Of a stretch of DNA of 46,409 nucleotides, positions 6,470 through 42,867 are shown piece by piece (position 1 is the stretch's first letter; the number at the start of each line of letters is the position of its first letter). Where the stretch lies: assembly GCF_017471675.1 (NCBI RefSeq), contig NZ_JAFUSK010000003.1, positions 1-46,409 of the forward strand, given 5' to 3'. The notes under the pieces were generated by a model. The model made no database searches, was not told where the DNA came from, and worked only from the letters and a program-made list of their open reading frames with translations. The DNA is from Pseudobutyrivibrio sp. GTDB lineage: Bacteria > Bacillota > Clostridia > Lachnospirales > Lachnospiraceae. Both the position numbers and the translations under genes were made by a program.

Positions 6470-6612
6470 TCCGCCGACCGCCAAGTGTTCCGTGCTCCCG
6501 CAGGGCACCCTCCATACCTAACCATGGGAGCCCGCCGGCGTGGGCACCCACCCATGGTCAGGCATGGCGCCCCCCTGCTCGCGCTTACCAAGGTTATGAT
6601 GTCGGCTTGGGT
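6470..6612 (-). repeat. Structured intergenic element, subtype C (copy C1, truncated)
   Basis: On the sense (minus) strand it ends ..GGTCGGCGGA 20 nt before the asnA ribosome-binding site. Basal arm GCCGAC pairs with GTCGGC. The core carries the subtype-C blocks GAGCAGG and CCTGCGGGAGC, but its apical hairpin is unique: ACCATGGG pairs with CCCATGGT, with GCCC/GGGC inside. This replaces the AAGGGAACC hairpin of the other copies. The expected 5' TGAG end is missing where it meets the inverted element at 6620, suggesting truncation by that neighbour. Confidence 0.75.
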
Positions 6613-6619
6613 TATTAAG

Positions 6620-6781
6620 TGAGTAATCATTGAGTTGAGACATACATGTCTTTCTAAAGACCTTAAAGTGCCGTCCCTACTTAGGTGGTGCAACGCAGCA
6701 CCTTACGTAGGGCAACGAGCACGACATGAGCGAAAGCGTGTCTTAGAAAGATATGTATGGGTCAGCGAAAATGATTACGGA
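6620..6781 (+). repeat. Structured intergenic element, subtype B, inverted (copy B3)
   Basis: Read on the plus strand it starts TGAG and ends CGGACTA, like the minus-strand copies. Basal arms TAATCATT and AATGATTA pair at the ends, and GACATACAT with ATGTATG further in. The core repeats the B1/B2 layout with different bases: GTGC pairs with GCAC, followed by GGCAACG. The inner hairpin has CCCTAC..GTAGGG arms, and a small GC-GAAA-GC hairpin sits in TGAGCGAAAGCG. It is the only copy opposing the surrounding genes, which suggests it can move. Confidence 0.8.
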
Positions 6782-6792
6782 CTACAGTGGGA

Positions 6793-6832
6793 AGAACTGC
6801 CATTGAAGATTGCCTACGGCAATGGCAGTTCT
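6793..6832. repeat. Perfect 13-bp inverted repeat between asnS and asnA
   Basis: AGAACTGCCATTG (6793-6805) pairs perfectly with CAATGGCAGTTCT (6820-6832) around a 14-nt loop. There is no T run on either side, so it is not an obvious intrinsic terminator. On the minus-strand transcript it follows the hairpin at the asnS stop codon and could protect or process the mRNA. Confidence 0.7.
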
Positions 6833-6836
6833 GGGC

Positions 6837-6872
6837 AATCAAATTCACACATGTTCATGTGCGAATTTGATT
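6837..6872 (-). repeat. 17-bp hairpin beginning in the asnS stop codon
   Basis: AATCAAATTCACACATG (6837-6853) pairs with CATGTGCGAATTTGATT (6856-6872) around a 2-nt loop, with one mismatch. The sense-strand stem begins within the stop codon TAA of asnS. No U tract follows, which argues for an mRNA 3'-end or processing structure rather than a terminator. Confidence 0.7.
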
Positions 6873-8271
6873 ACAGATCGCAATTACCTACGGTACGTGG
6901 GAATGGGATGACGTCACGGATGTTACCCATTCCTGTGAGGTACATTACGCAGCGCTCGAAGCCGAGTCCGAAGCCTGCATGACGAGAGCTACCGTATTTA
7001 CGAAGGTCAAGGTAGAACTGGTAGTCCTCTTCCTTAAGGCCGCATTCTTCCATTCTCTTGATGAGTACATCGTAGTCGTCCTCACGCTGAGAGCCACCGA
7101 TGATTTCTCCGATACCAGGAACGAGGCAGTCCATAGCTGCTACTGTCTTGCCGTCATCGTTGAGCTTCATATAGAAGGCCTTGATTTCCTTTGGATAATC
7201 TGTAACGAATACAGGCTTTCCAAAAATCTTTTCTGTTAAGTATCTTTCGTGCTCTGTCTGTAAGTCACAGCCCCAAGATACCTTGTAATCGAATTCGTCG
7301 TTGTGCTTCTCAAGCTCAGCAACAGCATCTGTGTATGTGATGCGTCCGAAATCAGAAGTAGCAACGTGATGTAATCTATCAAGAAGTCCCTTGTCGATAA
7401 AGCTGTTGAAGAATTCCATCTCCTCTGGAGCATGCTCTAATACGTAGTTGATGATGTACTTAATCATATCCTCTGCAAGTTCCATATCATCCTCAAGATC
7501 AGCGAATGAAATCTCTGGCTCAATCATCCAGAACTCTGCTGCATGACGAGTTGTGTTAGAGTTCTCAGCTCTAAATGTAGGACCAAATGTGTAGATGTTC
7601 TTAAATGCCTGTGCGTATGTCTCACCGTTAAGCTGACCAGAAACTGTAAGGTTTGTAGCATGGCCGAAGAAATCCTGTGAGAAATCTACCTTGCCATCCT
7701 CAGTCTTAGGGATGTTGTTAAGGTCCATTGTTGTAACCTGGAACATCTCGCCTGCGCCCTCACAGTCGCTTCCTGTAATAAGTGGAGTGTGAACATATAC
7801 GAAATCACGCTCCTGGAAGAACTTGTGAATAGCATATGCGCAAAGAGAACGAACGCGAAATACTGCCTGGAATGTGTTTGTACGTGCACGAAGATGTGTC
7901 TGTGTACGAAGGTATTCCATTGTATGTCTCTTTGGCTGGATTGGATAATCTGGTGTAGATTTTCCTTCAACTACAACCTTTGTAGCCTGAATCTCAAATG
8001 GCTGCTTAGCCTCTGGTGTAAGCACTACTGTACCTGTTACGTATACAGCTGCACCTACGTTAAGGTGACGAACCTCGTCAAAGTTATCAATCTTATCCTG
8101 GTTGAAAACTACCTGCACTGGATTAAAGAAAGTACCATCTGCAAGTACTAAGAATCCAAATGTCTTTGAATCACGCATGTTGCGAACCCAACCAGAAACA
8201 GTTACTTCCTTATCTCCATATTCTTTGAAGTTTCTAGAAAGAGTTCTAATATCTGTTGTTTTAACACTCAT
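6871..8271 (-). CDS. asnS: Asparaginyl-tRNA synthetase
   Basis: Class IIb synthetase charging tRNA-Asn; 466 residues, normal for AsnRS. The N-terminal OB-fold anticodon domain (about residues 12-110, [18 protein letters not shown]) is followed by the catalytic core. Class II motif 2 is the [21 protein letters not shown] block; motif 3 is [22 protein letters not shown], ending [11 protein letters not shown] start at ATG 8271 (MSVKTTD), which has GAGGAGA 6 nt upstream, not at the ATG at 8286, which lies within that ribosome-binding site region. Expression is probably controlled by the Asn-rich leader peptide and alternative hairpins at 8306-8465. asnA lies downstream. Confidence 0.96.
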
Positions 8272-8305
8272 ATCTTTTCTCCTCACTAATTATTAGCAAT
8301 AAATT

Positions 8306-8377: not shown

Positions 8378-8387
8378 CACAATAAAA

Positions 8388-8465: not shown

Positions 8466-8492
8466 GATTGTCCCCTTTCTTTATTTGAGTAA

Positions 8493-9879: not shown

Positions 9880-9932
9880 CACCTCATCAGTCACCTGCGG
9901 TGACAGCTTCTCCTCAAGGAGAAGCCTTTTTA
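9880..9932 (+). terminator. Palindromic repeat R2 acting as plus-strand terminator
   Basis: Same family as the repeat at 1741: ACACCTCATC, a GTCACC..GGTGAC hairpin (9890-9904), then GCTTCTCC-TCAA-GGAGAAGC (9906-9925) followed by CTTTTTATTT. The stem change (TTCTCC/GGAGAA instead of TTCCCC/GGGGAA) is compensatory. It probably terminates DUF4317 transcripts in the convergent gap. Confidence 0.8.
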
Positions 9933-10391
9933 TTTATCTAACTCATCAAGGTGAGGAATTGCAACCTCGCTCATAAGCTCGTTAGACATATCCTCTAAGA
10001 TATGGTTGAGTGTTGCGATTTCTTCCTTAGAGAAGTGTTCCTCAGAACGATCTGCAACTGTGCTAACATAGCCTGTTGAAAGATTGAGATAATCAAGATA
10101 CTTATCTGTAACGTGTAGGTGGAACTCTCTTCTATCTGTCTGAGACTGTACCTTCTGCAAATATCCTTTTTCAATCAAGCAAGCAACCTTATAAGCTGCG
10201 TTTGGTGATGAAATGCCGATGAAATCAGCAAATTCTTTAACTGTAGGATTGTTCAAGCAATATATAATTTCTACGCAAAATAATTCAACTATAGTAAGTG
10301 ATGTCTCTCTTGAATGTAGCTTGTTAAACATCTCCTGATAAAAATGAATTTTGAATTTGGTATAAACCTCTGTAAGATTTTTTTCTAACAT
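9930..10391 (-). CDS. MarR family regulator, likely FabT-like
   Basis: A 153-residue winged-helix protein of the MarR family. Helical N-terminus; HTH around residues 50-75 (TVKEFADFIGISSPNAAYKVACLIEKGYL); wing with the family's D-R pair (QSQTDRREFHLHVT); C-terminal dimer helices. It is the last gene of the fatty-acid operon, 53 nt after fabZ. A MarR protein inside a FAS II cluster is the FabT arrangement known from streptococci, where acyl-ACP helps repress fab genes. Assignment to FabT is inferred from context. Candidate operators lie at the acpP promoter (19995-20090). Confidence 0.8.
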   Translation of the reverse strand: MLEKNLTEVYTKFKIHFYQEMFNKLHSRETSLTIVELFCVEIIYCLNNPTVKEFADFIGISSPNAAYKVACLIEKGYLQKVQSQTDRREFHLHVTDKYLDYLNLSTGYVSTVADRSEEHFSKEEIATLNHILEDMSNELMSEVAIPHLDELDK

Positions 10392-10873: not shown

Positions 10874-10885
10874 ATAAACTCCTAG

Positions 10886-10969
10886 TCCGGTGTTACATAC
10901 ACAATCATAAATATAATCCGTCGCGAGATTGGCTCCTTGATTATATTTATAATTGTGTATTACACCTCA
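10886..10969 (-). repeat. Structured intergenic element, subtype A (copy A1)
   Basis: An 84-bp element between fabF and fabZ. The sense strand begins TAGATGAG and ends CGGACTA, and the fabZ ribosome-binding site follows directly. The basal stem is about 30 bp; for example ATAAATATAATC (10909-10920 region) pairs with GATTATATTTAT. The loop CAAGGAGCCAATCTCGCGAC is identical in its tandem neighbour A2, although the stems differ. Confidence 0.85.
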
Positions 10970-10983
10970 TCTAAACTCCATAG

Positions 10984-11067
10984 TCCGGTGTTACGTAAAC
11001 AATCATTAACACAATCCGTCGCGAGATTGGCTCCTTGCTTGTATCAATAATTGTTTACTACGCCTCA
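10984..11067 (-). repeat. Structured intergenic element, subtype A (copy A2)
   Basis: Second 84-bp copy, 14 bp from A1 and in the same orientation. Stem bases differ from A1 on both arms and largely keep pairing: A1 ACACAAT/ATTGTGT becomes A2 AAACAAT/ATTGTTT. The 20-nt loop is unchanged. It begins about 10 nt after the fabF stop codon. Confidence 0.85.
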
Positions 11068-14009: not shown

Positions 14010-14167
14010 TCCGCCTGTACTATCCAAGCTATAAAAAATTATCATTCGCCCCGCTTGCGCTCATTGCGTAACGTTGCCACACTAAGTTCGCGTAAGCGCT
14101 CACTAAGTGTAGACGTTACTCGAAGGGCTCATTGATAACTTTTTATAGCTTGGCTAGTTCAGGCTCA
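14010..14167 (-). repeat. Structured intergenic element, subtype B (copy B1)
   Basis: A 158-bp element between fabK and fabD. The sense strand starts TAGATGAG and ends CGGA. Basal arm CCAAGCTATAAAAA pairs with TTTTTATAGCTTGG. Core: TTATCA/TGATAA, GCCC/GGGGC, GTAACGT/ACGTTAC, an ACACTTAGT..ACTTAGTGT hairpin, and a GC-GCAA-GC mini-hairpin in TGAGCGCAAGCGG. The core is nearly identical to B2 at 15144; the basal arms are unrelated. Confidence 0.88.
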
Positions 14168-15143: not shown

Positions 15144-15301
15144 TCCGCATATGTCTATCTAGAATTAAAAAATTATCATTCGCCCCGCTTTCGCTCATTA
15201 CGTAACGTTGCCACACTAAGTTCGCGCAAGCGCTCACTAAGTGTAGACGTTACTCGAAGGGCTCATTGATAACTTTTTAATTCTATCTAGTCATATGCTC
15301 A
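15144..15301 (-). repeat. Structured intergenic element, subtype B (copy B2)
   Basis: A 158-bp element between fabH and fabK. The core almost matches B1, except that the mini-hairpin loop is GAAA instead of GCAA (both GNRA). Basal arms CATATGACTAGATAGAATTA and TAATTCTAGATAGACATATG are complementary to each other, not to those of B1. The sense strand starts TGAG and ends CGGACT, 6 nt before the fabK ribosome-binding site. Confidence 0.88.
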
Positions 15302-20090: not shown

Positions 20091-20105
20091 TAAAATTTCT
20101 CAGTA

Positions 20106-20144
20106 CTAAAAAAACTGTAGACACCATATTTCTGGTGCTACAGT
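20106..20144 (-). terminator. Intrinsic terminator of the LXG toxin module
   Basis: ACTGTAG (20114-20120) and CTACAGT (20138-20144) pair, with CACC/GGTG inside. T runs occur on both strands (20113-20106 on minus, 20143-20149 on plus), so it can work in both directions. It separates the toxin module from the FAS II promoter. Confidence 0.88.
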
Positions 20145-20220
20145 TTTTTCGTTTTATTTCCTGATAAACAGGCTAAATTACTCTATTTTTATATTTTTTG
20201 AGATGATACAAAGCGATTAT

Positions 20221-20616
20221 CTATTTGTTTTGAAGTTCTCTTTCATAAGCTAATGCATTCGCCAACTCAATCTCTAATGATGAAATACTCGATTTGCATG
20301 AATTAATCTTTTCCTCAAGTCTATAAATTACTGCATTCAAATCCGATAATGCATTATCAATATCATCCAAATATTTTGATAAACTATTAGATATTGAATA
20401 TTGATAATCTATCGCTTCTTCATGCAGTTTACCCTTCCATTTGTTATCTGAGCTTATATCGTACATGTCATTCCATTCCTTAATATCATGATCAATACTG
20501 TTGGAATTTGAAATAATATCAGATTTCATCATTTTAATTTCATTAATGTTGCTTTCATATGTTCTTATTTGGGCATACAGTCCATCTATTTGATTCTGAA
20601 TATCTCTACTGCTCAA
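20221..20616 (-). CDS. DUF5082/YwqH-like small coiled-coil protein of an LXG module
   Basis: A 131-residue, almost entirely helical protein with no signal peptide. It has two long coiled coils (about residues 1-45 and 75-131) around a central W-K-G motif (NKWKGKLHEE, about residue 60). This resembles WXG100-type hairpins and the YwqH/DUF5082 proteins that accompany LXG toxins. Such partners bind the LXG domain and help deliver it to the type VIIb secretion system. Its ATG overlaps the upstream gene by 11 nt (translational coupling). It is the last gene of the module. Confidence 0.7.
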   Translation of the reverse strand: MSSRDIQNQIDGLYAQIRTYESNINEIKMMKSDIISNSNSIDHDIKEWNDMYDISSDNKWKGKLHEEAIDYQYSISNSLSKYLDDIDNALSDLNAVIYRLEEKINSCKSSISSLEIELANALAYERELQNK

Positions 20617-21413: not shown

Positions 21414-21427
21414 ATTTTATCTCTCCT

Positions 21428-23407: not shown

Positions 23408-23488
23408 TTTATTTTCCTTTTCATATTCTTTATCTTATTTGCTATATTCTTCTTCCCGTTATCTTTTATTAGAACATAGTAGTCAATC

Positions 23489-23516
23489 TGTATAATCCGC
23501 CAAACAGCTATGTAAA
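23489..23516 (-). promoter_or_regulatory. Promoter of the LXG toxin module
   Basis: Minus strand: TTTACA (23516-23511), a 16-nt spacer and TATACA (23494-23489). It leaves a 5' leader of about 75 nt before the toxin ATG. Nothing else stands out in the 23408-23637 gap apart from AT-rich sequence before the HD-GYP gene. Confidence 0.6.
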
Positions 23517-23637
23517 AAGTTACTCCATAAACATTTTTTATAATTTATGAACAATTCTATAATAATTTAGACATACTTTAATGTTAAAAATAAGATAGTG
23601 CTTTGTATGTATTTATTTTGAAATAGATAGGTTTATT

Positions 23638-29188: not shown

Positions 29189-29201
29189 CCAATCTATACC
29201 C
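29168..29201. terminator. Perfect 15-bp hairpin across the bioB stop codon
   Basis: GGGTATAGATTGGCT (29168-29182) pairs perfectly with AGCCAATCTATACCC (29187-29201) around GAAT. The stem covers the last codons and stop of bioB and ends 6 nt before the stop of the convergent restriction gene. There is no T run on either side. It may block read-through or stabilise both 3' ends, like the hairpin at the asnS stop. Confidence 0.6.
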
Positions 29202-29206
29202 AAACA

Positions 29207-32200: not shown

Positions 32201-32533
32201 GACATTAAATTTATCATTTGAATCTGGACCAGTTATTTTAAACCATTCATTATTCTTACCTTTCTCCTGTTCAACACCATCTTTCCTAAGGTAAGCATGA
32301 AAATCTTTATCAGTAAATCTTTCCTCTGTGCCATCATCAAATACTGCTCTTCCTTGCCACTCCAAGTTATATTCAATATCAGCAGTATGGGTTTGTTGCT
32401 CTATTCTTGTAATTACATCCTGCTCTGTATATCCTATCTTTGTCCACCCGTTATGACGAGCAACCTCTGGGGTGGTATAGGCATATATCATTGGAACAAC
32501 CTGGGTGGTTGATTTGATTTTTGGTGTAATCAT
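29207..32533 (-). CDS. GIY-YIG/SF2 helicase restriction protein ending in half an N6-methyltransferase
   Basis: 1108 residues. An N-terminal T5orf172/GIY-YIG-like nuclease domain (about 14-85: IYAYTTPE, WTKIGYT) is followed by an SF2 helicase: KPRFGKT (about 159), VVDEAHEG (277), LSGTPF (304), and motifs V-VI with TTGITIP and QAAFRAQNP. A long helical middle includes TRNETGRSTDEIEKEFAEKK. The last about 130 residues match methyltransferase motif X (NQIYTPKDVVKRMVD), a motif I variant (FIDLYMKSGLYITE) and VYGLAPTEIIY. The protein ends just before the motif IV that opens the gene upstream. AGGAGA precedes ATG. Likely the restriction/translocase subunit, co-transcribed with that methyltransferase gene. 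Confidence 0.85.
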   Translation of the reverse strand: MITPKIKSTTQVVPMIYAYTTPEVARHNGWTKIGYTEQDVITRIEQQTHTADIEYNLEWQGRAVFDDGTEERFTDKDFHAYLRKDGVEQEKGKNNEWFKITGPDSNDKFNVFRKNHGILKTVNAIIPYQLRPEQQEAVRLTKEYHDSNAEGEFLWNAKPRFGKTLAVYDFCKQVNASTVLIVTNRPAIANSWYSDYMKFMGTESGFYFVSEVEALKGRPGVLSRNEYTKASRDDDKGCIEFVSLQDMKGSIYFGGQYDKLAEISKAKGMVWDVLVVDEAHEGVDTYKTDVAFDQINRKFTLHLSGTPFKALANNKFDESAIYNYTYADEQKRKRDWDLTDEHENPYSNLPKLNLYTYQMSEIIKDELSQGIEIQGETVEYAFDLNEFFSTNNGKFVHDSSVDKFLDALTVQKKFPFSTPELRDELKHTFWLLDRVDSARCLAKKLKEHPVFAEYEIILAAGDGKIDDDDENEKSYDKVKAAIEKYEKTITLSVGQLTTGITIPEWTAVLMLSNVKSPALYMQAAFRAQNPCLFNEDGVFKRKENAYVFDFDPARTLVIFEEFANDLSIYTSAGRGDIEARKENIRELLNFFPVIGEDEDGELVELDAEAVLTIPRKIKSVEVVRRGFMSNFLFQNIGNVFSAPREVMDIIEQFTAVSEPKTNVKLTEEVKKDLSLDENGEVQLSDEYVIGLSKDIFGEKRVAVKEVDDIIETCIDENIATDNDRNKKMAKVIKDYAKNVIVNAIVEDTKDNYGDTLRKSDEKQLSAKLIADVDRIVEKAVSNYTIEENLIEHDRMEAMQTRNETGRSTDEIEKEFAEKKQEAQEKFKTGLSQVMEQFEDDSRIETTKTIEIKVKERERDEIEDGVRDHLRGFSRTIPSFLMAYGDDSVTLATFDNIIPDKVFLEVTSITLEQFRFLRDGGEYIDSETGEKRYFNGHLFDSVVFDDSVKEFLGLKKKLADYFDEKSVEDIFDYIPTQKTNQIYTPKDVVKRMVDMLEEENPGCFDDPDKTFIDLYMKSGLYITEIVKRLYQSEGLKKAYPDKNERLKHIFEKQVYGLAPTEIIYKIATSFILGFDEDVEITKHNFKQVDALPFAKEGTLQNKIDELYDN

Positions 32534-32572
32534 ATAATCTTCTCCTAATTCGAAACTATTAATACCTATTTT

Positions 32573-33580
32573 TTATTCCATAGGTTTGACATGTGTTTCA
32601 ATAAATTCAATTTCTTCTTCTGATAATCCGTATTTACGATATAGTTGCTGGTCAATCTCTGGTATTGACTTAGACCAATCGATATCGGAGGATGATGTGA
32701 AATCTTGGAGTGGGACGTATTTCCATTTTGGTGCTGGCATATCTTGCGTTATTTTTAGAACCCCCAACAATGCTCTACAGAATTTGCTATTAACATATTT
32801 ATTAGTATTATGTACAGCTTCTTCATTATCAAAACATCCTACGCTTATAAACGTTTGAGTATATCCCATACCTGGCTTCGAAATAGATGAAGGTCCCATT
32901 AATTCTCCAAATTCACCCATCCCGCTTGCCTTAGGTAATAATAACGTGTAACTATCTAACGTACCCGAAGAATCTTTTATGTAATCTTTTCTTATATATC
33001 TCAAAACTCTTTTTCCATTAAGCAATCCAATCATCCTAATATAATCCCTGTTATCTTCGGGTTTGTTTTCAAAGAAAATTTCTTCAAGATTAACAAAAGC
33101 ACTTGACCTAAGTCTATCAATCATTTTGGGATTCTCTATCTTCATTTTTTCTGTCAGTTGAAAGCTTAATGGCGAAGAAATAATTTCTTCCATTGACGCT
33201 TCTATTTTTGCATTTACTTTTTTTAGAATAGCATTAAGTTCATCATATTTTGTAAATATTCCTATACTCCCATAATCCTTGCTTTCGTCACGATAAGAAA
33301 CCACTACCCCACCTTTTATGTCTGTGTTATGAAAAACATTTTCACTTATAGGTTCGTAATACTTTATTTTAAAATGCATATCATTTAGCATTTTTTCATT
33401 CCATATTTTAGGAGTATAACCAGCATTAAATAAGAATCTAGCAGGTGTAATTAATTCTACTGCACCTGCAATTTTAAATGCTTCGTCCATAAATAAGTTA
33501 TATACTGGTGGTTTTCTTGTACTTTCACTATCTGTTTCCTCTTGGTATGGTGGATTACCAATTACATAATCAAACTTCAT
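32573..33580 (-). CDS. Eco57I-type N6-adenine methyltransferase half starting at motif IV
   Basis: 335 residues. The protein opens with FDYVIGNPPYQEE, the catalytic NPPY motif IV of gamma-class N6-adenine methyltransferases, preceded by a single Lys. The rest (VELITPARFLFNAG, then a probable target-recognition part with KWKYVPLQDF) follows the Eco57I family. SAM-binding motifs X and I are missing here but sit at the C-terminus of the next gene, so the enzyme appears split with the halves in swapped order. I start at ATG 33580, with GAGGGG 9 nt upstream; the ATG at 33613 lies inside operator O1. Confidence 0.85.
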   Translation of the reverse strand: MKFDYVIGNPPYQEETDSESTRKPPVYNLFMDEAFKIAGAVELITPARFLFNAGYTPKIWNEKMLNDMHFKIKYYEPISENVFHNTDIKGGVVVSYRDESKDYGSIGIFTKYDELNAILKKVNAKIEASMEEIISSPLSFQLTEKMKIENPKMIDRLRSSAFVNLEEIFFENKPEDNRDYIRMIGLLNGKRVLRYIRKDYIKDSSGTLDSYTLLLPKASGMGEFGELMGPSSISKPGMGYTQTFISVGCFDNEEAVHNTNKYVNSKFCRALLGVLKITQDMPAPKWKYVPLQDFTSSSDIDWSKSIPEIDQQLYRKYGLSEEEIEFIETHVKPME

Positions 33581-33607
33581 TTTTACATTCCCCTCGTAAT
33601 ATGTATT

Positions 33608-33796
33608 TGACATTCTGTAGATGTCATTATAAGCATTAATTTAGAGCCATACACAAAGTGGCTCTATGGCATCTAGTGAATGTCATTCTTGTTTTAAATT
33701 AATGACATCTCAGCAATGTCATTTTGAAATATAGGTTATGTCATTTCATACTTAAATATACCGCAAAATTTATCTTGTGACAATCAGTGAATGTCA
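33608..33796. promoter_or_regulatory. Four 19-bp operators between the divergent methyltransferase and XRE genes
   Basis: TGACATTCTGTAGATGTCA (O1, 33608-33626), TGGCATCTAGTGAATGTCA (O2, 33667-33685), TGACATCTCAGCAATGTCA (O3, 33703-33721) and TGACAATCAGTGAATGTCA (O4, 33778-33796). All fit TGACAT-N7-ATGTCA. O1 overlaps the TATAAT region of the minus-strand promoter and ends just before that gene's leader. O4 touches the AAGGAGG of the XRE gene. A plus-strand promoter TTGAAA-17-CATACT (33724-33752) serves the XRE gene. The XRE protein is the obvious candidate ligand. Confidence 0.85.
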
Positions 33797-33811
33797 AGGA
33801 GGATAATTGAA

Positions 33812-34051
33812 ATGTATAAAAATAAAGCATCTGATGGTTGGAATAATATTTGTGGACATAATGTAGCCACTTACAGACAACAATTAAGATATTCTCAAAA
33901 TGATTTAGCCGAAGAACTTCAAGTAATCGGCCTTGATGTCGATAAAAACGCTATCCAGCGTATAGAATGTGGAAAAAGATTTGTTACAGATATTGAATTG
34001 CAGTATTTAGCCAAGGCTCTTCACTGTGGCATACTTGATTTACTTAAATAA
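33812..34051 (+). CDS. XRE-family controller protein of the restriction locus
   Basis: A 79-residue helix-turn-helix protein (HNVATYRQQLRYSQNDLAEEL, then NAIQRIECGKRFVTDIELQYLAKAL). Size and position resemble C proteins of restriction-modification systems. I start at ATG 33812, with AAGGAGG 8 nt upstream; the ATG at 33791 lies within operator O4. It is divergent from the methyltransferase half. With six matching operators at its own, the methyltransferase and the 'subunit M' promoters, it probably sets expression of the whole locus and its own. Confidence 0.85.
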   Translation: MYKNKASDGWNNICGHNVATYRQQLRYSQNDLAEELQVIGLDVDKNAIQRIECGKRFVTDIELQYLAKALHCGILDLLK

Positions 34052-34081
34052 AAATATTCAGTACTGTTTGCCTATTAGTAA

Positions 34082-34128
34082 ATAAAATATTCCCTCTAAA
34101 TCTTATAAATAATAATAGATTTAGAGGG
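34082..34128 (-). terminator. Terminator at the 3' side of the DUF234 ATPase cassette
   Basis: CCCTCTAAATCT (34092-34103) pairs perfectly with AGATTTAGAGGG (34117-34128) over 12 bp. On the minus strand it is followed by AATATTTTATTT. It begins 8 nt after the ATPase stop codon and also lies downstream of the convergent XRE gene. A near-identical hairpin stands at the other side of the ATPase gene. Confidence 0.8.
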
Positions 34129-34135
34129 AGTATTT

Positions 34136-35575
34136 TCACATATGAAACAAATCATCCATAACAACTTCATTTTGGATAATACTACTGTATTCGTTCTTTT
34201 TAACACCATAGGTAGAAATCATTACCAGTTGAATTGATTCAGTACATTTTGTAGCCAGCTTAAAAGCTTCAATTTTATTCCTAAGGTTTAAATCATAGTC
34301 CTTTGTTATAGTGTATTGCCCATTTGAAAACTTGATTTCACAAATGGTAATCACCCTATCACCACGATGAATTAGTAAATCGATTTGTGCTCCTGAATCA
34401 ACTTCGCTATCCTTAGAACGCACAAACCAAGATGATTCCTCAGTGAGAACCCCTGATATTCCTAATTTATGTTTGATAGCAGGTATATGATCCCTACATA
34501 CTTGTTCAAATGTGAGTCCTTCCCATGCTCTACGTGATGGATTGTCTGTGGAATGACTCCAAAAATGTTCATCCTTACCATAATTATCCTTGATATATCG
34601 CATATAAAAGGCTGTGTAATAATCCCTCAATTGAAATATGGCATCCTTCTTTTTCTTTTTATAGTAGTTAGAAATACGAATAAATCCAGAAAGTTCGAGA
34701 TTTTTTAAAATCAAGCTTAGATCACCATTATTCTTGAGCTTAGTTTTTGTCACTAACTCAGCTCTGGTCATGCCACACCTTTTTCGACTAAGTGCATCCA
34801 CAACTTTTATATAATTCTCACTATTCGAAAATAAGGTGTTATATAAATGCTCAAACTCATCCCACAATTCGCCACCCTCAGCAAAAAATAGATTATCTAT
34901 ATTCTGTGAAAGTGATAGTTTAGCATTGAGCAGACTTAAGTAGTAAGGAATTCCACCCATAATCATATATAACCGAACAATATCATTTCTAGACCATCTA
35001 ATATTATGATTTATAAGATATTCTTCTACCTCGTACAGCTTAAAAGGTTTTAAAAACAACTTGCGAGTAAGTCGATTAAACAATCCGCCTTTATTATTTG
35101 CAATTTTTTCATCCATCCATGATGTAGCAGAACCGCTTACAATAAACACAAGATTATCCATGGTAGAAGCCCAGTCATTCCAAAACCACTCAAAGGTTGA
35201 TAAAAAGTCTGACTTAGGATTGTCGAGCCACGGTAGCTCGTCGAAAAATACCACCTGTTTTTCATCTGCTGGCAATAGCTCCAAATAATCTCGCAACCTT
35301 GAAAATGCTTCTCTCCAGTTGGTAGGAATATCCTGCATATTCTTAGATTTCCTATTAAGCTCTAAAGCAAAATTTTCCAACTGAACTTCTTTTTTCTTTC
35401 CATAGGTTCCTGTCAGTTTGAAGGCAAAGTTGTTGTTAAAATATTCATTAATTAGAAACGTCTTGCCAACTCTACGACGCCCATACACAACTATAAGTTG
35501 AGCCCTATCCGACTCCATGCATAAATCAAGCTTTTCCTGTTCTTCAATTCTTCCAATTATCTTCTTTTTTCCCAT
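34136..35575 (-). CDS. DUF234-type AAA ATPase with C-terminal PD-(D/E)XK-like domain
   Basis: 479 residues. Walker A is VVYGRRRVGKTFLINEY (about residue 30) and Walker B is VVFFDELPWLD; a sensor-like FIVSGSATSWM follows. A winged-helix region comes next (MTRAELVTKTKLKNNGDLSLIL). The C-terminal DUF234 part has GAQIDLLIHRGDRVITICEIKFS, the D..E-x-K pattern of a restriction-like nuclease. These 'archaeal ATPases' occur widely in genomic islands with unproven roles. No Shine-Dalgarno is visible before ATG. It lies inside the restriction island but is bounded by related hairpins at 34092-34128 and 35616-35654, suggesting a separately inserted cassette. Confidence 0.85.
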   Translation of the reverse strand: MGKKKIIGRIEEQEKLDLCMESDRAQLIVVYGRRRVGKTFLINEYFNNNFAFKLTGTYGKKKEVQLENFALELNRKSKNMQDIPTNWREAFSRLRDYLELLPADEKQVVFFDELPWLDNPKSDFLSTFEWFWNDWASTMDNLVFIVSGSATSWMDEKIANNKGGLFNRLTRKLFLKPFKLYEVEEYLINHNIRWSRNDIVRLYMIMGGIPYYLSLLNAKLSLSQNIDNLFFAEGGELWDEFEHLYNTLFSNSENYIKVVDALSRKRCGMTRAELVTKTKLKNNGDLSLILKNLELSGFIRISNYYKKKKKDAIFQLRDYYTAFYMRYIKDNYGKDEHFWSHSTDNPSRRAWEGLTFEQVCRDHIPAIKHKLGISGVLTEESSWFVRSKDSEVDSGAQIDLLIHRGDRVITICEIKFSNGQYTITKDYDLNLRNKIEAFKLATKCTESIQLVMISTYGVKKNEYSSIIQNEVVMDDLFHM

Positions 35576-35615
35576 GTATATATTTTATCAAAAAATTGTC
35601 GAAATGAAAATATAT

Positions 35616-35654
35616 CTCCTCTAAATCTCGTAAAAAAAGATAGTTTTAGAGGAG
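35616..35654. repeat. Inverted repeat at the 5' side of the DUF234 cassette
   Basis: CTCCTCTAAATCT (35616-35628) pairs with AGTTTTAGAGGAG (35642-35654) with one mismatch. Its arms share CCTCTAAATCT with the terminator at 34092. Together they bracket 1.56 kb holding only the ATPase gene. It could be an upstream leader hairpin or a remnant cassette end. Confidence 0.6.
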
Positions 35655-35736
35655 GCATGTAAAAATTGATATCTTGTTATGTTATTCATTACCCCATATT
35701 TTTAAGCCTATTTATATGGAAACTATTTCACGAAAT

Positions 35737-36642
35737 TTATCCCCTAATACTCTTATAAGTTATCACTGTTTTTTCTGTCCAGTCATATATCTTGCAATCG
35801 ACCTGCTCAGGCTCTGTATCATTTATACCTTGTTCATAGTCAAAGAAACTCATTTGATGAAATTCTTCTGTTGGTTTACCAAATGGTACTGTGCCTGTAA
35901 TCCCATCCATCTGCCAAAAATTCCAAACTATTATCTTTGTAATCTCATTTAGTTCTTTGGCAACTGGCTGTCTGCCCAATTTATCCAGCATATAATCAAC
36001 AAAGGTTGTAAGTAGATTGATTCTAGCGATTAACAGATTATCCCCTTGAAATTCATATCCATAAACACTTTTGAAAGCTTCATAAGTCCATTTCAACCAG
36101 TCTTTTTCATCATTAGCATTTTCCGCTACAACCCTAAGTTTTCGATCCAAAATACCAATGCGCTTTTCAATAGGTATTATCTCGCCTGTAGCTGCATCAT
36201 ATCTGGATACTATATAAGGAGCTTCCCCGCAAGTAATTTCTAATCGCTTGGATTTAACGTAGTCCTTCCAATCTTTTTCTGATGGAAAGTCTATTTTACC
36301 GACTGTGGTAGTCCATTTTTCACCATTCTCTATGTTAAATACATTTTCACGACCAAACCATTCTGCATCACAATGATTATTCATTTTATTACAAATCCAT
36401 GAAGGGGTAAAAACTTCCGCTTTCTTCCTGGTACGGTCACTTTGTACATTTAGAGCTTTCTCCACACGAGGACAAATTTCGTATTCTTTGCTATTTGAGA
36501 GAATGTATTTCTCTGTTATTTCATCTTTAGGATTACCAGTATATATATCTGTAGCAAAGATAATATTTTTTCCTGTGGTATTATCCTTTAGAAGTTTCTT
36601 TAATACATTATTAGTGGGATATTCTCGATAATTTATTAGCAT
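35737..36642 (-). CDS. Restriction 'subunit M'-like protein with motifs X and I only
   Basis: 301 residues, typical of the family annotated as restriction endonuclease subunit M. A methyltransferase motif X (KKAEVFTPSWICNKMNN, about residue 87) is followed by LEITCGEAPYIVSRYD (motif I-like) and VYGYEFQGDNLLIARINLL. No (N/D)PP(Y/F) is present, so it cannot methylate alone. The C-terminus has CKIYDWTEK. I start at ATG 36642 with AAGGAG 11 nt upstream; the ATG at 36672 lies inside operator O5. It likely joins the NPPY-containing protein or the helicase protein in one complex. The DUF234 cassette separates it from them. Confidence 0.75.
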   Translation of the reverse strand: MLINYREYPTNNVLKKLLKDNTTGKNIIFATDIYTGNPKDEITEKYILSNSKEYEICPRVEKALNVQSDRTRKKAEVFTPSWICNKMNNHCDAEWFGRENVFNIENGEKWTTTVGKIDFPSEKDWKDYVKSKRLEITCGEAPYIVSRYDAATGEIIPIEKRIGILDRKLRVVAENANDEKDWLKWTYEAFKSVYGYEFQGDNLLIARINLLTTFVDYMLDKLGRQPVAKELNEITKIIVWNFWQMDGITGTVPFGKPTEEFHQMSFFDYEQGINDTEPEQVDCKIYDWTEKTVITYKSIRG

Positions 36643-36666
36643 TGATATTAACACTCCTTGAGGCTG

Positions 36667-36720
36667 TGACATTCACAAGATGTCAATCTTGATAAAGCAA
36701 ATGACATCTTGTGGATGTCA
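36667..36720 (-). promoter_or_regulatory. Two 19-bp operators upstream of the subunit M gene
   Basis: TGACATTCACAAGATGTCA (O5, 36667-36685) and TGACATCTTGTGGATGTCA (O6, 36702-36720). The reverse complement of O6 differs from O5 at one base. They are centred 35 bp apart, nearly the O2-O3 distance (36 bp). O5 ends 12 nt before the AAGGAG of the gene. They belong to the same family as the four sites at 33608-33796. Confidence 0.85.
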
Positions 36721-36769
36721 TTTGTCACTTTTCAATATACCCCAAAGGAGTCATATAATCAATTTTAAA

Positions 36770-38194
36770 TTATTTCCCCCCTAAGCTCTTCTTCAAGAAC
36801 ACCACTAGGAATACCACTGCTGCAACTATTCCTACTGGATACGCAATAGCGGTGGAAAGGTTCAGGCACTCTGGTGCACAGAAGAAATAGGTAACAGATA
36901 CTGCGGACATGAATGTGGCAGGGATTGTTGTGAGCCAGTAGTTTTTGCCATTCTTGTATAGGTACATAGATGCTGTCCACAGTGCTATCATGGCAAGGGT
37001 CTGGTTAGACCAGCTGAAATATCTCCATACAACATTGTAATTAAGCTGGCTGATTAAAGCGCCGGCTCCCAGCAACGGGATACAAATAAACAGGCGGTTT
37101 TTATAGGATTTCTGATTAACGTTGAACCAGTCTGCAATAACAAGCCTTGCTGAACGAAAGGCTGTATCACCTGATGTAATAGGACATGCAATTACACCAA
37201 GCATTGCAAGAACTATTCCTACTCCACCCATTGTCTTGGTGCAGATATCATATACGCAGGCAGATTGCCCACTTGCTAGCATCTCGGTAAGTCCTGTGGT
37301 TAATCCCCCTGTTCTTTCGTAGACAGCACTTCCTGCTGCCGCCCAAATAAGTGCGATAATTCCTTCACTTACCATAGCTCCATAAAACACCATGTGACTT
37401 TCCTTTTCTGACTTGCAGCACCTGGCCATCAGTGGGGATTGGGTAGCATGGAAGCCTGAGATGGCACCACATGCAACTGATACAAACATCATTGGCCAGA
37501 TTGGTGTTTTATCAGGATGAAGATTTGCTAATTCTATTTCAGGGATAGTATATCCGTTAGTAAAAATACCTACAGCTACACCAATTGCCATTACTATTAG
37601 GCATATGCCAAACACTGGATAGAACTTTCCTATAACCTTATCAATTGGAATAAATGTTGCAATGAAATAATAGATTAAAACGATTGCCAGCCAAAAATAT
37701 GTGTTAGCTATTAAACCAGTACCACCCTGATTACCTATCAAAAGAGAAATCAATCCTGCGGGTCCTACAGCAAAAACAGTGCCAATCATCACAAGCAGGA
37801 CAACACTAAAGACGCGCATTATATTCTTCATAACCTTGCCAAGGTACATGCCGGTAAGCTCTGATACACTGGCTCCATCGTGGCGCATGCTCATAAATCC
37901 TACAGAAAAATCATGAACACCACCAGCAAGTATAGTTCCAAGTGTAATCCAAAGGAATACACTCGTACCCCACTGTGCACCTGCCAAGGCGCCGTATATA
38001 GGTCCAAGTCCTGCGATATTAAGAAGCTGAATCAAGAATAGCTTCCATCTAGGCATTACCACAAAATCTACCCCATCATTTATTCTTACTGCTGGGGTTT
38101 GCCGGTCATCAGGGCCATATATCCTATCAACCAGCTTACCATAGGTGAAATATCCTATAACAAGTACCACCAAACAAATCATAAAACTGAACAT
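36770..38194 (-). CDS. cstA: CstA family carbon-starvation/peptide or pyruvate transporter
   Basis: 474 residues with about 12-14 membrane helices. Family blocks: YGPDDRQTPA, MPRWKLFLIQLLNIAGLGPIYGALAGAQWG, GGVHDFSVGFMSMRHDGAS and CGAISGFHATQSPLMARC. E. coli homologues CstA and BtsT import peptides and pyruvate. I start at ATG 38194, with GGGGGTG 6 nt upstream; the TTG at 38209 is unlikely. It is a single gene with no matching regulator nearby. Its 3' end lies 50 bp from operator O6. Confidence 0.92.
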   Translation of the reverse strand: MFSFMICLVVLVIGYFTYGKLVDRIYGPDDRQTPAVRINDGVDFVVMPRWKLFLIQLLNIAGLGPIYGALAGAQWGTSVFLWITLGTILAGGVHDFSVGFMSMRHDGASVSELTGMYLGKVMKNIMRVFSVVLLVMIGTVFAVGPAGLISLLIGNQGGTGLIANTYFWLAIVLIYYFIATFIPIDKVIGKFYPVFGICLIVMAIGVAVGIFTNGYTIPEIELANLHPDKTPIWPMMFVSVACGAISGFHATQSPLMARCCKSEKESHMVFYGAMVSEGIIALIWAAAGSAVYERTGGLTTGLTEMLASGQSACVYDICTKTMGGVGIVLAMLGVIACPITSGDTAFRSARLVIADWFNVNQKSYKNRLFICIPLLGAGALISQLNYNVVWRYFSWSNQTLAMIALWTASMYLYKNGKNYWLTTIPATFMSAVSVTYFFCAPECLNLSTAIAYPVGIVAAVVFLVVFLKKSLGGK

Positions 38195-38279
38195 AAAATT
38201 CACCCCCAATACAACTTTAACTACCCTTATTCTATCCCTCTATGCCCCCAATTTTCAATAGTTGTCGTAAATCAAGAGG

Positions 38280-38312
38280 TAAAAAAAAGAGATATCACCC
38301 GAAGTGATATCC
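38280..38312 (-). terminator. Intrinsic terminator of the efp unit
   Basis: GATATCACC and GGTGATATC-type arms around a CTTCGG tetraloop (about 38291-38310). On the minus strand the stem is followed by TC and a run of eight T. It lies about 15 nt after the stop of the 66-codon gene. Confidence 0.9.
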
Positions 38313-38326
38313 CTTAGTAATCGTAC

Positions 38327-38527
38327 TTATTTAGAGAGACGTTCCACAATCTTATCAAGGGTTTCCTTAGGAACTGTGCCATCACGGTACAGCTGGTTAA
38401 TAGTGCTTTCACTACCAAGCAATGCTGTAGCGTCAAGCCAAGTGCCCTTTTGAAACTCTTCGTCAAAGACAGCAAATATTTTTCTGTTTTTTAAAAGCTC
38501 TGAAAGTGGGTATTCTCTGTAATCCAT
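38327..38527 (-). CDS. Conserved-looking 66-aa protein coupled to efp
   Basis: A 66-residue soluble acidic/basic protein (MDYREYPLSELLKNRKIFAVFDEEF, then WLDATALLGSESTINQLYRDG). I do not recognise a named family. ATG 38527 comes 1 nt after the efp stop (TAAATG), which implies translational coupling. A longer in-frame reading to 38662 overlaps efp and is discarded. A terminator follows, so efp and this gene form the unit. Confidence 0.6.
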   Translation of the reverse strand: MDYREYPLSELLKNRKIFAVFDEEFQKGTWLDATALLGSESTINQLYRDGTVPKETLDKIVERLSK

Positions 38528-39706: not shown

Positions 39707-39822
39707 AAAGGCTTCCCCTCAAGGGGAAGCCGTCACCGCAGGTAACTGATAAGGTGTTCTACAGTTAATTACACCTCATCCGGCCTTTGGCCACCTTCCC
39801 CTCAAGGGGAAGGCTATCTTAT
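39707..39822. repeat. Two head-to-head palindromic repeats (R3, R4) in a convergent gap
   Basis: R3 begins GGCTTCCCC-TCAA-GGGGAAGCC (about 39710-39731) and continues GTCACCGCAGGTAACTGATAAGGTGT, reading outward. R4 begins ACACCTCATCCGG (39769), then GGCC..GGCC and CTTCCCC-TCAA-GGGGAAG, reading the other way. They are inverted copies of the family seen at 1741 and 9880, and probably terminate both the CYTH gene and the phosphorylase gene. Confidence 0.8.
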
Positions 39823-39826
39823 TTGA

Positions 39827-41467
39827 TTAAATAATCTCGTATTCAAGGCTTTCAAAATCAGCCTTAAGAGTGATGGTATCAGCTCCCTTAGTCCATGTAA
39901 AGGATGTAACTGAACCTTCGGTATTAATAGATAATTCACTGTCAAATCCAAATGCAGGATGTGTCTTTCTAAGGCGAAGCAATTCAATCTGCTTCTTTAC
40001 TACGTCCTTATTAAGGTCTGCTTCGATTTGGTCAAGTGAAAGATTGGTTCTGTTGATTTCCTTATGTCCACCTGCTCCAGCTCGCTTTACTGCTTCGTGG
40101 TCATTCTTTCCTGCAAACAAATCAAGATACCACACCTGTGGCTTACCTGGCATGAACATCTGAATTGCTCTGGCAAAGAGCATCTTCTTATCATCCTCAC
40201 CAAGTGCGCTATAGTAGGTAGCATTAACCTGATAGTACATATTCTTAGCACCGTGAAGATCCTTAACGAATCCTCCACGTGCAACTAAAGTATCGATAAG
40301 CTTTTGAATCTCAGACTCAGGCAATAGTCCCTTCAAATCCAAAAGAGGAATACCATCGTGGCAACCAAGCATGTTAACCACCTTAATATCCTTTTCAATC
40401 AATTCCTTAGCCCAATTAACAAGAAGTGAGCTATCATGATTTTCGATTGCATGAATAAGTAAGCCTGGAAGGAAGAAATCGTATGTCATGTAACCTTTGC
40501 TTGCTACAAGCTCGTAAATCTTCTCACCGTAGCTTGCGTGAATCTCTGGAAGGAGTGTGACCCCATTCTTATCTGCAAGCTCTCTAACCCTCTGAAGTAA
40601 ATCCCATGTACCTGGGTCATTCAAGAAGTTCTTCTCGCCTGGCTCCTTTGGTGCATAAGCAAATGCATCCAATCTGACGATTTTAGCTCCGTATGATGCA
40701 AGTGTCTTAAGAGTGTTCTCGTAGAATTCCCAAACAAGTGGAGATTTAATATTTAAATCCATCTGACCTAAATATCTACGGCTGCTCTCAAGCAAATCAA
40801 CTACAGCATCACGGTAGCTTTCATATTTACCAAGCTCTAAATCAGCCACTGCCTTACCCTCAGCAATCTGAGTGTTAACACAGTCTGCCAATCTAGAAGC
40901 TGCCACGTACTGGATGTCCATCTTCTCCATAAGGTCCTCAGCCTCAAGCTTCTTATAACGAACCTCCTGGTAGAATGTGTTCCAATATGGGACATTTCTT
41001 CCATCTGGGAAACGAACCATAAGAATTGGTAAGCCTGGCTTTCTGAAGAACATATCCTTGATATATTTCTCCTCAGGCTGAATATAACCAGCCTCTGTCA
41101 TTTCGCCGCAGCCTTCCCAGAATTTGTTCCAGTTGATAAAGAAATCCTTATACTTGGAATTCTCACCATTCTTAATAATATCCTGGAACTCCTTTGACAA
41201 TACAGATGCATGATTGAGAATGAAATCAAGCTTAAGATCAATGTCCATAGCCTTGATATCCTCGATTGCCTTGCGGCTACCCAATTCTTCATTGATGCCG
41301 TAATCGATAACCGAGAAGCCTCTATCTAAATCTGTATTAAAAATGCTAGGCAAGATATAGAATGACTCGAAGACATCCTTTAAATCTTCCTTGCTCAAAA
41401 CCTTTACAATATCATCAAGTGTGCCGCCCATAGAATCTGGGTAGGCATTTAACATAGGACCGTTCAT
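39827..41467 (-). CDS. GH13 subfamily 18 sucrose phosphorylase-like enzyme
   Basis: 546 residues. N-terminal LNAYPDSMGGTLDDI and DRGFSVIDYGINEELGS are characteristic of GH13_18. The catalytic nucleophile Asp is in IVRLDAFAYAPKEPG, the acid/base Glu in TLLPEIHASYG and the stabilising Asp in LGCHDGIPLLDLKG; LRKTHPAFGF comes late. Members phosphorolyse sucrose, sucrose 6'-phosphate or glucosylglycerate, and the exact substrate cannot be read here. GGAGG lies 7 nt before ATG. A P-loop kinase gene lies upstream across repeat C3, perhaps in one operon. Confidence 0.85.
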   Translation of the reverse strand: MNGPMLNAYPDSMGGTLDDIVKVLSKEDLKDVFESFYILPSIFNTDLDRGFSVIDYGINEELGSRKAIEDIKAMDIDLKLDFILNHASVLSKEFQDIIKNGENSKYKDFFINWNKFWEGCGEMTEAGYIQPEEKYIKDMFFRKPGLPILMVRFPDGRNVPYWNTFYQEVRYKKLEAEDLMEKMDIQYVAASRLADCVNTQIAEGKAVADLELGKYESYRDAVVDLLESSRRYLGQMDLNIKSPLVWEFYENTLKTLASYGAKIVRLDAFAYAPKEPGEKNFLNDPGTWDLLQRVRELADKNGVTLLPEIHASYGEKIYELVASKGYMTYDFFLPGLLIHAIENHDSSLLVNWAKELIEKDIKVVNMLGCHDGIPLLDLKGLLPESEIQKLIDTLVARGGFVKDLHGAKNMYYQVNATYYSALGEDDKKMLFARAIQMFMPGKPQVWYLDLFAGKNDHEAVKRAGAGGHKEINRTNLSLDQIEADLNKDVVKKQIELLRLRKTHPAFGFDSELSINTEGSVTSFTWTKGADTITLKADFESLEYEII

Positions 41468-41485
41468 TTTATTCCTCCATTAAAG

Positions 41486-41646
41486 TCCGCCTGCTATTCG
41501 GCAAACTGCTCCAAGTATTACATGCTCTCGGAAGCCATCTCCCATTTCAGTCAAGGGAACCTCCCTAAAGGGTCCCTCCTTAACTGAATGGGGCCCTCTT
41601 CCTCGCGCTTGCCAACACAATGACAGTTTGCTGTTTACCAGGCTCA
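41486..41646 (-). repeat. Structured intergenic element, subtype C (copy C3)
   Basis: A 161-bp element between the kinase and phosphorylase genes. The sense strand starts ATGAG and ends GGCGGACTTTAA, just before the phosphorylase ribosome-binding site. Basal arm AGCAAACTG pairs with CAGTTTGC-type sequence, unique to this site. The core hairpin base is TTCAGT/ACTGAA where C2 has TGTGGT/ACCACA, a six-position compensatory change. The AAGGGAACC..GGGTCCC top is shared. Confidence 0.85.
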
Positions 41647-41661
41647 TATAAATATTAAAAT

Positions 41662-42561
41662 CTACTTCATAAGCTCCTCGTACTGGGCGTACGATAGGAG
41701 TTCACCTGCTTTAGAAAGAATAATTTTTGCTTTGTGGGCCTGTGATTTTAAAAGGTTTTGCTCAATCTCTAGAACAAGCATGGTGAATGCGCTATCAGTT
41801 TTGCCATCGCGGTTTCTAGCTTTACGATGAGCTAGAGTTTCCTCTGGTGTACTGTTGAGAAGGATTGGAATATCCACGCCTTCGTAATTGTCGCTGTTAC
41901 CATGTGTCCATTCGATAACTAGAACTTTAACGTTCGTAAAATCAATCTGTTCATACCAAAGTTCAGAGTTGGTTCTACCCATTCTCTTAAGGTAGATTTT
42001 ATTCTGGCCAGACTTGAAAGCCTTTACAATACCAGACACTTCATCGAAATCAATTTCGTTCTTAGTGCCAAGGTAACCTGTAAGACCCTTGCGACCGCCA
42101 TCAATATAAGCCTGCGCCCATGGGCACTCACTTACATGAGCCTTGTCAGCATCAGTCTCCTCATCCTGCCATTTACGCAAGATTTCAAAATGCTCCATGC
42201 TTCCTTCGCCAGACTTAACTAAGTTTCTCACACCTTCGGTGCGGAAAATGCGAAGTCGCTCTGCATCGTTGTACATTGGAATACGTCTAGGATAGTTGTC
42301 GCCAGACATGGTGTAAGCACCAATGCCCTTTTCGTTCAGCATGTAGCTGATAAGAGATGCGGTCTCAGACTTACCTACTCCCGAACCGCCACAAACTGCG
42401 ATGACTGCTTTGCCATCCTTAGCAAGAACTTCATCAAGCTGACCCATAAGTGAGTCCATGATTACATTCGCCTTCTTAACGTGTTCCTCTCCTATTTCTA
42501 CCTTGTCACCTGGCATATCGCCATGTGGAATGTCTCTGTATTGTTTAAGATCAATAGCCAT
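41662..42561 (-). CDS. Uridine kinase-like P-loop kinase
   Basis: 299 residues. Walker A VIAVCGGSGVGKSETASL (about residue 60); a possible substrate region SGDNYPRRIPMYNDAERLRIFRTEG; VLVIEWTHGNSDNYEG (Walker B position); RKARNRDGKTDSAFTMLVLEIEQ near the end. It fits the broad uridine kinase/adenylylsulfate kinase-like group; the substrate is not evident. TAGGAGGA lies 7 nt before ATG. Pairing with a sugar phosphorylase suggests it may phosphorylate a sugar or glycerate product, but that is only inference. Confidence 0.7.
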   Translation of the reverse strand: MAIDLKQYRDIPHGDMPGDKVEIGEEHVKKANVIMDSLMGQLDEVLAKDGKAVIAVCGGSGVGKSETASLISYMLNEKGIGAYTMSGDNYPRRIPMYNDAERLRIFRTEGVRNLVKSGEGSMEHFEILRKWQDEETDADKAHVSECPWAQAYIDGGRKGLTGYLGTKNEIDFDEVSGIVKAFKSGQNKIYLKRMGRTNSELWYEQIDFTNVKVLVIEWTHGNSDNYEGVDIPILLNSTPEETLAHRKARNRDGKTDSAFTMLVLEIEQNLLKSQAHKAKIILSKAGELLSYAQYEELMK

Positions 42562-42607
42562 AATAATTTCCTCCTAATCACTAAAGATAAACATAAACAA
42601 CACTTCA

Positions 42608-42659
42608 TCATTATACATAAAAAAAAGAAATTACAAAATGCAATTTCTTTTTTTTATGT
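42608..42659 (-). terminator. Long AT-rich hairpin terminator with adjoining promoter
   Basis: ACATAAAAAAAAGAAATT (42615-42632) pairs perfectly with AATTTCTTTTTTTTATGT (42642-42659): 18 bp with T runs in both directions. It ends the binding-protein unit. TATAAT (42613-42608) follows directly on the minus strand and, with TTTTGT 17 nt upstream inside the hairpin, could be the promoter of the kinase gene. Confidence 0.75.
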
Positions 42660-42708
42660 AAATTACCGAAAAAACTGTCCAATTATACAAAACATATTAG
42701 TAATTTAG

Positions 42709-42867
42709 TCCGCTTTGTTTGTTAACAAGCATCCTAGTGTTTCATGCTCCCGCAGGCCACCTCCCATTGCAGTCAAGGGAACCTCCCTAAAGGGTCCCTC
42801 CTTAACTACATGGGGCCCTCCTGCTCGCGCTCGCCAACTATTTCTAGCTTGTTAACCACAAAGCTCA
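42709..42867 (-). repeat. Structured intergenic element, subtype C (copy C4)
   Basis: A 159-bp element directly downstream of the binding-protein gene. Sense strand TAGATGAG..CGGACTA. Basal arms AGCTTTGTGGTTAACAAGC and GCTTGTTAACAAACAAAGC pair with an internal bulge and are unique to this locus. The core has GCAGG/CCTGC and a partly mismatched TGTAGT/ACTGCA hairpin base. Unlike most copies it is not next to a ribosome-binding site: a terminator follows before the next gene. Confidence 0.85.

Follow-up and report, generated by a model that had tools for sequence, protein, structure and literature searches.

Miniature inverted-repeat transposable elements (MITEs) and the ERIC and BOX sequences are short, non-coding, dispersed and hairpin-forming elements. 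In passages of PMC3733652, whose main text does not contain the words Firmicutes and Clostridi, repetitive extragenic palindromic sequences (REPs) are described as high-copy palindromes located between unidirectional and convergent genes and plausibly transcribed, and passages of PMC3116915 describe REPINs with conserved ends and compensatory changes in the spacer. For the repetitive hairpin elements of sponge mitochondria, conserved stems and varying loops are described in part of PMC2800124. In the present study, we have analyzed nine hairpin elements (C1, C2, C3a, C3b and C4 to C8) in a 46,409-nt stretch of Pseudobutyrivibrio sp. (contig NZ_JAFUSK010000003.1; hereafter the window), which is contig C90 of a 3.1-Mb genome in 92 contigs (G000). 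Genomes compared with it carry other G-labels, and loci carry L-labels. A short canonical unit and two larger core types, class A and class B, recur among the copies.

Judging from sequence comparison, these are probably small non-coding elements specific to one genus, apparently mobile and selected as folded RNA. We read them as a mobile, transcribed and self-nesting hairpin family that is REP-like in behaviour, for which we infer movement. REPs and REPINs are the nearest systems in high copy number, palindromic form, location between unidirectional or convergent genes and compensatory change, as far as these are covered in PMC3733652 and PMC3116915. However, the present unit is about 88 nt long and nests, its TGAG and CGGA ends are not inverted REPs, its orientation follows transcription, and no Y1 transposase match was found in G000. 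A REP is a palindrome of 20-40 bp with an unpaired GTAG tag at one end, whereas GTAG here is internal and paired except for one base. The sponge hairpins are likewise dispersed, hairpin-forming and apparently mobile, but their pattern as described (PMC2800124) is the reverse of ours, in which loops are conserved and stems vary. From MITEs, ERIC and BOX the elements differ in that their arms are locus-specific and the fold is kept rather than the terminal sequence; ERIC and BOX are set apart here by description only.

The family is apparently uncatalogued. As anticipated in the preliminary description of this DNA, no Rfam 15 family reached its gathering score in the window. A relaxed search gave sub-threshold matches only, including a chance-looking microRNA hairpin on C3a (30.1 bits, where the gathering score is 100), and for seven other loci gave two sub-threshold matches, both away from pattern-matched element positions. 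No title or abstract opening describing these elements was found among the open-licence papers searched; since subscription journals were outside this scope, the result is no proof of novelty.

The canonical unit and its folded strand

The canonical unit reads TTTAGATGAG-stem-CGGACTA. The consensus of its 5' half is TTTAGATGAG-NNN-GT, an A opposite GTA, G-NNN-ACAAGC and then a variable stem; in the apical part AAGCGA lies opposite GAGCGG, and the return strand is GCTTGT-NNN-C, GTA, AC-NNN-CGGACTA. The fold is rod-shaped, its internal loops being conserved and its stems co-varying. For the UGAG/CGGA loop, a hammerhead and a kink-turn were considered and dropped, as no fit was apparent.

The following sequences have been used for examining this fold: 65 distinct short sequences, obtained by pattern extraction from 69 before near-duplicates were merged, and an alignment of 44 of them, from which the other 21 were removed by hand. 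A further 28 pattern matches having no recognisable 5' arm were excluded. The extraction patterns fixed GCTTG, GTAA and CGG together with one GA, one TA and one GC position, without requiring pairing. Because of this, the conserved letters are partly present by construction, while neither the NNN stems nor the apical part had been constrained in this way.

Folding of the 44 aligned units by RNAalifold gave -40.6 kcal/mol, with double changes at 22 of 30 pairs. Paired cells made up 96.8% of 1319, compared with 76.4±0.7% after shuffling, and the covariation score was 0.535 versus 0.148±0.009 (none of 500 shuffles was as high, and structures slid along the alignment gave at most 0.074). Kinship among the sequences inflates the outcome of the shuffle control but, in our judgement, not by the margin seen. 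Among the 11 closest sequence pairs, nine differed by single-side and two by double changes, and doubles dominate as distance grows, which resembles ordinary compensatory evolution in a single folded strand.

The non-Watson-Crick cells of the full set of 65 sequences, which was also used for this strand test, were 49 G·U, 8 A·C and 45 others among 1938. The difference between G·U and A·C has p=2.7e-8 if cells are independent, which is optimistic since the sequences are related. The sense strand was lower in energy in 65/65 short sequences with RNA parameters and in 64/65 with DNA parameters, and in 40/43 class A copies. Given the excess of G·U over A·C and the lower energy of the sense strand, it is probably RNA that folds. 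The covariation, together with the G·U excess on the sense strand, argues that the folded form is selected; both the selection and the significant covariation anticipated in the preliminary description are thus borne out, far above shuffled and slid controls. The change of sequence with pairing retained, to which it also pointed, has at least two origins, namely stepwise compensatory change in the short family and, in the large copies, the presence of near-identical cores in unrelated arms.

Occurrence in the genus and position between genes

The elements have been found here only in Pseudobutyrivibrio. The pattern GCTTGT-N-CGTAA-N-CGGA is present in 27 of 29 genomes of the genus, and its reversed control in 0/29; pattern matches are numerous in G003, G014 and G016 and absent from G007 and G020. 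When C7 was used as a query, 33 matches were obtained in G000, some being two pieces of a single copy, and across 41 genomes matches occurred in 19, namely in 19/25 Pseudobutyrivibrio and in 0/16 from other families of the order. A stricter pattern, searched in the genomes of 84,980 species, found 24 stretches, all from Pseudobutyrivibrio. With a covariance model of the short canonical unit (R1), matches were found in two of 299 Lachnospiraceae genomes drawn from a larger group, both Pseudobutyrivibrio; the 297 sampled genomes of other genera, for each of which 13 candidates were scored under strict filters, gave none, and the family-wide spread once expected of the elements was not seen. In viral contigs, the pattern occurred in 55 stretches, about the chance level by our estimate, 0/55 of which were matched by the model, and the class A pattern was absent from them. 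A figure of about 200 copies per genome is obtained by a rough and upward-biased extrapolation from 32 model matches in about 430 kb of G000.

Genomic context was scored for 44 of the 51 model matches in about 1 Mb of stretches, some of which had been chosen for holding class A copies; one ortholog, two antisense duplicates and four weak matches were removed by hand. Genes were called simply as longest open reading frames, and gap lengths include the elements. Thirty-three matches lie in sense between co-directional genes, seven in antisense, four between convergent genes and none between divergent genes. The sense bias (33 vs 7) has p=4e-5, and the absence from divergent gaps, which account for 16% of gap length, has P(0 of 44)=4e-4. 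A frequent site is between a stop codon and the ribosome-binding site of the next gene. A start codon follows within 60 nt of the element end in 25 of the 44, at 8-20 nt in 20 of these 25, where the start was defined as the first one that follows the element and has a Shine-Dalgarno-like stretch, a rule that favours short distances. In mRNA, the rods may provide intercistronic structure, for example by blocking exonucleases or by uncoupling the translation of adjacent genes, and such a role would fit the absence of model matches from divergent promoter gaps.

On contig C1 of genome G012, 9/9 minus-strand pattern matches lie at 173-1154 kb and 4/4 plus-strand matches at 1632-1832 kb. This is the arrangement that copies would show if they followed leading-strand genes or the direction of replication.

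The nine copies of the window and their orthologous sites

All nine hairpins were confirmed at their previously reported positions, with refined bounds, and each lies in a gap between genes. Eight are on the minus strand, in sense with the neighbouring genes, and C2 is on the plus strand, antisense to both neighbours. Class A cores are found in C6 (25920..26087), C7 (41482..41646, the repeat occupying 41510-41616) and C8 (42706..42867), and C1 (6470..6606) is a class A-type hairpin with a different apex. Class B cores of 114 nt, 97% identical to each other, are found in C4 (14007..14167, core 14032-14145) and C5 (15140..15301, core 15166-15279), whose arms are unrelated. C3a (10883..10969) and C3b (10981..11067) are short canonical-type units in tandem, and C2 (6620..6784) has a core of its own, so that the single core which the preliminary description took to be shared by all nine is replaced by several types. 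Its view that arms differ wholly between copies does not hold for C3a and C3b, which belong to a 98-nt repeat with 85% identity. As to the ends it regarded as conserved except in C1 and C2, C1 has indeed lost its 5' TGAG and kept a 3' CGGATT; the ends of C2 are intact (TGAG at 6620, CGGACTA ending at 6784), and the 5' end of C6 is also damaged (AGAAGAG). C7 has TGAG and CGGACTTT as its ends.

R1 finds five of the nine copies: C3a (51 bits), C3b (44.8 bits), C4 (46.8 bits), C6 (37.9 bits) and C8 (27.1 bits), the last two through their canonical bases. A strict search of the window for TGAG-stem...stem-CGGA gave four matches (4/9 copies satisfy the pairing rule), whereas with eight permuted end pairs there was never more than one match per pair (0 or 1). 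Over all stretches searched, the TGAG/CGGA detector gave 18 rows, versus 4, 16, 6, 5, 8, 20, 4 and 2 for the eight permuted controls. Outside the window, this detector is therefore not decisive by itself, and the evidence for an above-chance family comes from the covariance model and from the control with the reversed pattern.

C1 is placed 5' of an AsnA gene (5440-6450, minus strand), C3a lies immediately before a FabA-like gene, and C6 precedes a lactate/malate dehydrogenase gene. The neighbours of C3, C4 and C5 are fatty-acid-type genes (FabA-like, ketoacyl synthase, acyl transferase and nitronate-monooxygenase-type).

Orthologous sites differ widely among relatives. The C7 site was compared in 13 of 14 genomes, with G003 left out: class A elements are present in G000 and G016, and the same element with its apex deleted in G015; short elements occur in G041, G006 and G012, nested ones in G021 and G014, a different hairpin in G043 and a minimal stub in G044, and there is none in G001, G018 and G019. 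At the C8 site, one element is common to G000 and G015, another is present in G006, and G041 has only TGAGCTTGTTTCGGACTA, a stub. In G015, the C3 (C3a and C3b) and C5 sites are empty, the C1/C2, C4 and C6 sites differ, the C6 site being a short hairpin stub, and the C1/C2 gap holds a core similar to that of C2 with other arms and in the opposite orientation. The C1/C2 block (6470-6784) looks inverted between G000 and G015 (L052): the flanking genes are the same, but the class A element and the C2-type core have exchanged both order and strand.

When 266 loci were compared all against all, 67 insertion/deletion events of every kind were obtained. Among 60 of them, some are apex losses between direct repeats (e.g., GCTCCCGC/GCTCGCGC), some are clean presence/absence differences, and some involve other repeats. 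One different interspersed repeat (TGACTTCTTGTGGGCTACTTAAGG...) was noted at L012 (about 127 bp), with similar stretches at L087 and L024 and close relatives having none at such loci. The comparison of empty and occupied gaps suggested earlier has thus yielded both kinds, while a clean insertion footprint was not found among them. A TAG...TAG target-site duplication at the outer ends was not above shuffling. The hairpin NNN-GTAAC-NNN was considered as a minimal form of the site before insertion and rejected, as only 1 of the 48 matches listed (G044, L063) carries element ends and the other 47, judged by eye, have none. A loose scan for an autonomous copy, with an open reading frame between end motifs, gave nothing convincing; 141 of the 243 5'-motif matches in it had no near partner and were mostly coding.

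Nesting, arms and alternative explanations

R1 aligns C4 as a canonical element with about 72 extra nt in its terminal loop. Similar nesting occurs in terminator-like hairpins. At the L007 terminator (contig C21 of G000, near 32027), such a hairpin holds a class A element in G000 and G015, a C3-type unit in G041 and G008, and a canonical unit in G016, where only the left flank is common. The hairpin is plain in G023, with both flanks common, and in G021, G044, G014 and G043 with the left flank only (G003 is less clear); the loci of G006 and G001 showed the right flank only. At this gene end, relatives with near-identical left flanks carry wholly different terminator stems, as if whole hairpins had been swapped. 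A second terminator has an element inside the hairpin in G041 and a plain hairpin, with a partly different stem, in G000, G015, G023 and G006. Four genomes retain the arms of one element at the C40 site, where at least three apices occur. Since modules are found inside canonical and terminator-like hairpins, one copy can hold another.

These facts favour the entry of modules at hairpin loops. The modules would be the class A core, the class B core and further canonical units, and the locus-specific complementary arms would be the stem of the host hairpin for large cores and the product of compensatory change for short units. A stronger form of this mechanism, which we put forward only tentatively, is that units recognised by their fixed purine-rich internal loops enter the terminal loops of transcript hairpins, either a terminator or another copy, so that hairpins grow ring by ring; the sense bias would reflect entry via RNA or via single strands exposed by transcription. 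Any complementary sequence might then serve as arms, as nothing but the structure and the loops would be read.

Several results weigh against the reading as mobile, transcribed and self-nesting elements. No target duplication is evident at the one position and length examined, where the outer trinucleotides match in 17/65 sequences versus 13.8 expected. Y1_Tnp (PF01797), the only family searched for as a mobilising gene, and in G000 as the only genome so searched apart from controls, gave 0 matches there versus 5/14 control genomes. In the class A arm test, which used fixed windows cutting part of many arms, within-copy pairing exceeded the 95th percentile of cross-copy pairing in 21/43 and the 99th in 17/43. 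The orientation bias of class A is weaker (of 43 copies, 24 co-directional in sense, 8 in antisense and 11 other; 24 vs 8, p=0.007), and 4/43 were scored between divergent open reading frames, the upstream frame overlapping the element in each. The L007 stems differ between G000 and G041 despite a 96.7% identical left flank, so that a common pre-existing stem is not demonstrated there. Clean empty sites (C3 and C5 in G015; L025/L106) have no pre-existing hairpin, so that the TGAG/CGGA copies there need an explanation other than loop entry. The regulatory role, finally, is read from the position of the elements.

Insertion at palindromes has precedents among transposons, and the alternative that survives best, though somewhat short of an even chance, is that only the cores of about 105-114 bp are mobile, inserting at palindrome centres, and that all arms are pre-existing target hairpins. 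Several observations agree with this. For 23 standard class A copies, there are 113 pairs whose cores are at least 90% identical (mean 93.5%) and whose arms are 33% and 30% identical and at most 59%; the class B core is common to C4 and C5, and C4 carries its insert in the loop. Elements also occupy terminator-like hairpins at a site where the hairpin of G023, with the same flanks, is plain, and likewise at the second terminator. Yet the empty sites of C3, C5 and L025/L106 offer no hairpin as a target, one terminator has different stems in G000 and G041, and the conserved TGAG/CGGA ends and the covariation of the short units are left unexplained.

The same arm identities make it doubtful that these are ordinary MITEs, DNA elements mobilised in trans by a transposase, with the arms as diverged terminal inverted repeats. 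Such elements would be multicopy and present or absent at orthologous sites, as observed here, and a GCGGC/GCCGC arm, read by eye, is common to 6/43 class A copies. However, conserved terminal inverted repeats define a MITE, and here they would be the least conserved part; no trinucleotide duplication above expectation was seen at the outer ends, and a G·U strand bias is unexpected for repeats read as DNA.

It is rather unlikely that the arms are written by the cell, through palindrome-templated repair that copies one flank onto the other and gives an inserted hairpin its perfect locus-specific stem. Arms are indeed locus-specific and complementary, and in the L196/L158 pair one arm is common with a nearly empty relative, but L158 looks like the deletion remnant of an inverted copy and not an empty site. 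Close pairs of short elements change one side first, often via G·U, and mismatches in the internal loops persist uncorrected.

A leader RNA that regulates in cis, does not move and is passed on vertically with each gene would account for the conserved RNA-like fold on the sense strand before start codons and for C8 being common to G000 and G015. We consider it very unlikely, as the downstream genes are unrelated and as presence/absence, replacement at the same sites, and tandem and nested copies are observed. The view that a RAYT (Y1) transposase moves these as elements of the REP/REPIN type can scarcely be maintained in spite of the high copy number, intergenic hairpins and a GTAG motif in the unit, given the lack of a Y1_Tnp match in G000, of an inverted doublet and of an unpaired GTAG.

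If the reading as a transcribed, self-nesting family is true, one bacterial genus carries an abundant and apparently uncatalogued RNA-structured element, in which the usual rule of mobile DNA is reversed, end stems being least and loops most conserved. It would supply natural covariation data on a large scale, allow structure-directed insertion to be tested, and bear on operon punctuation in rumen bacteria, for example at the fatty-acid genes of the window.

A separate repeat of terminator-like CAGCTTCCCCTCAAGGGGAAGCC hairpins is present in the window at 1767-1807, 9904-9944 and 39792-39832, and GTCA...TGACTGATGAGG comes after the CAGCTTCCCCTCAAGGGGAAGCC-type hairpin at 9904 and in G041. For the regions of about 20100-23530 and 29190-38330, no long alignment with the orthologous stretch of the G015 contig was obtained, whereas the sequences on either side of them do align.

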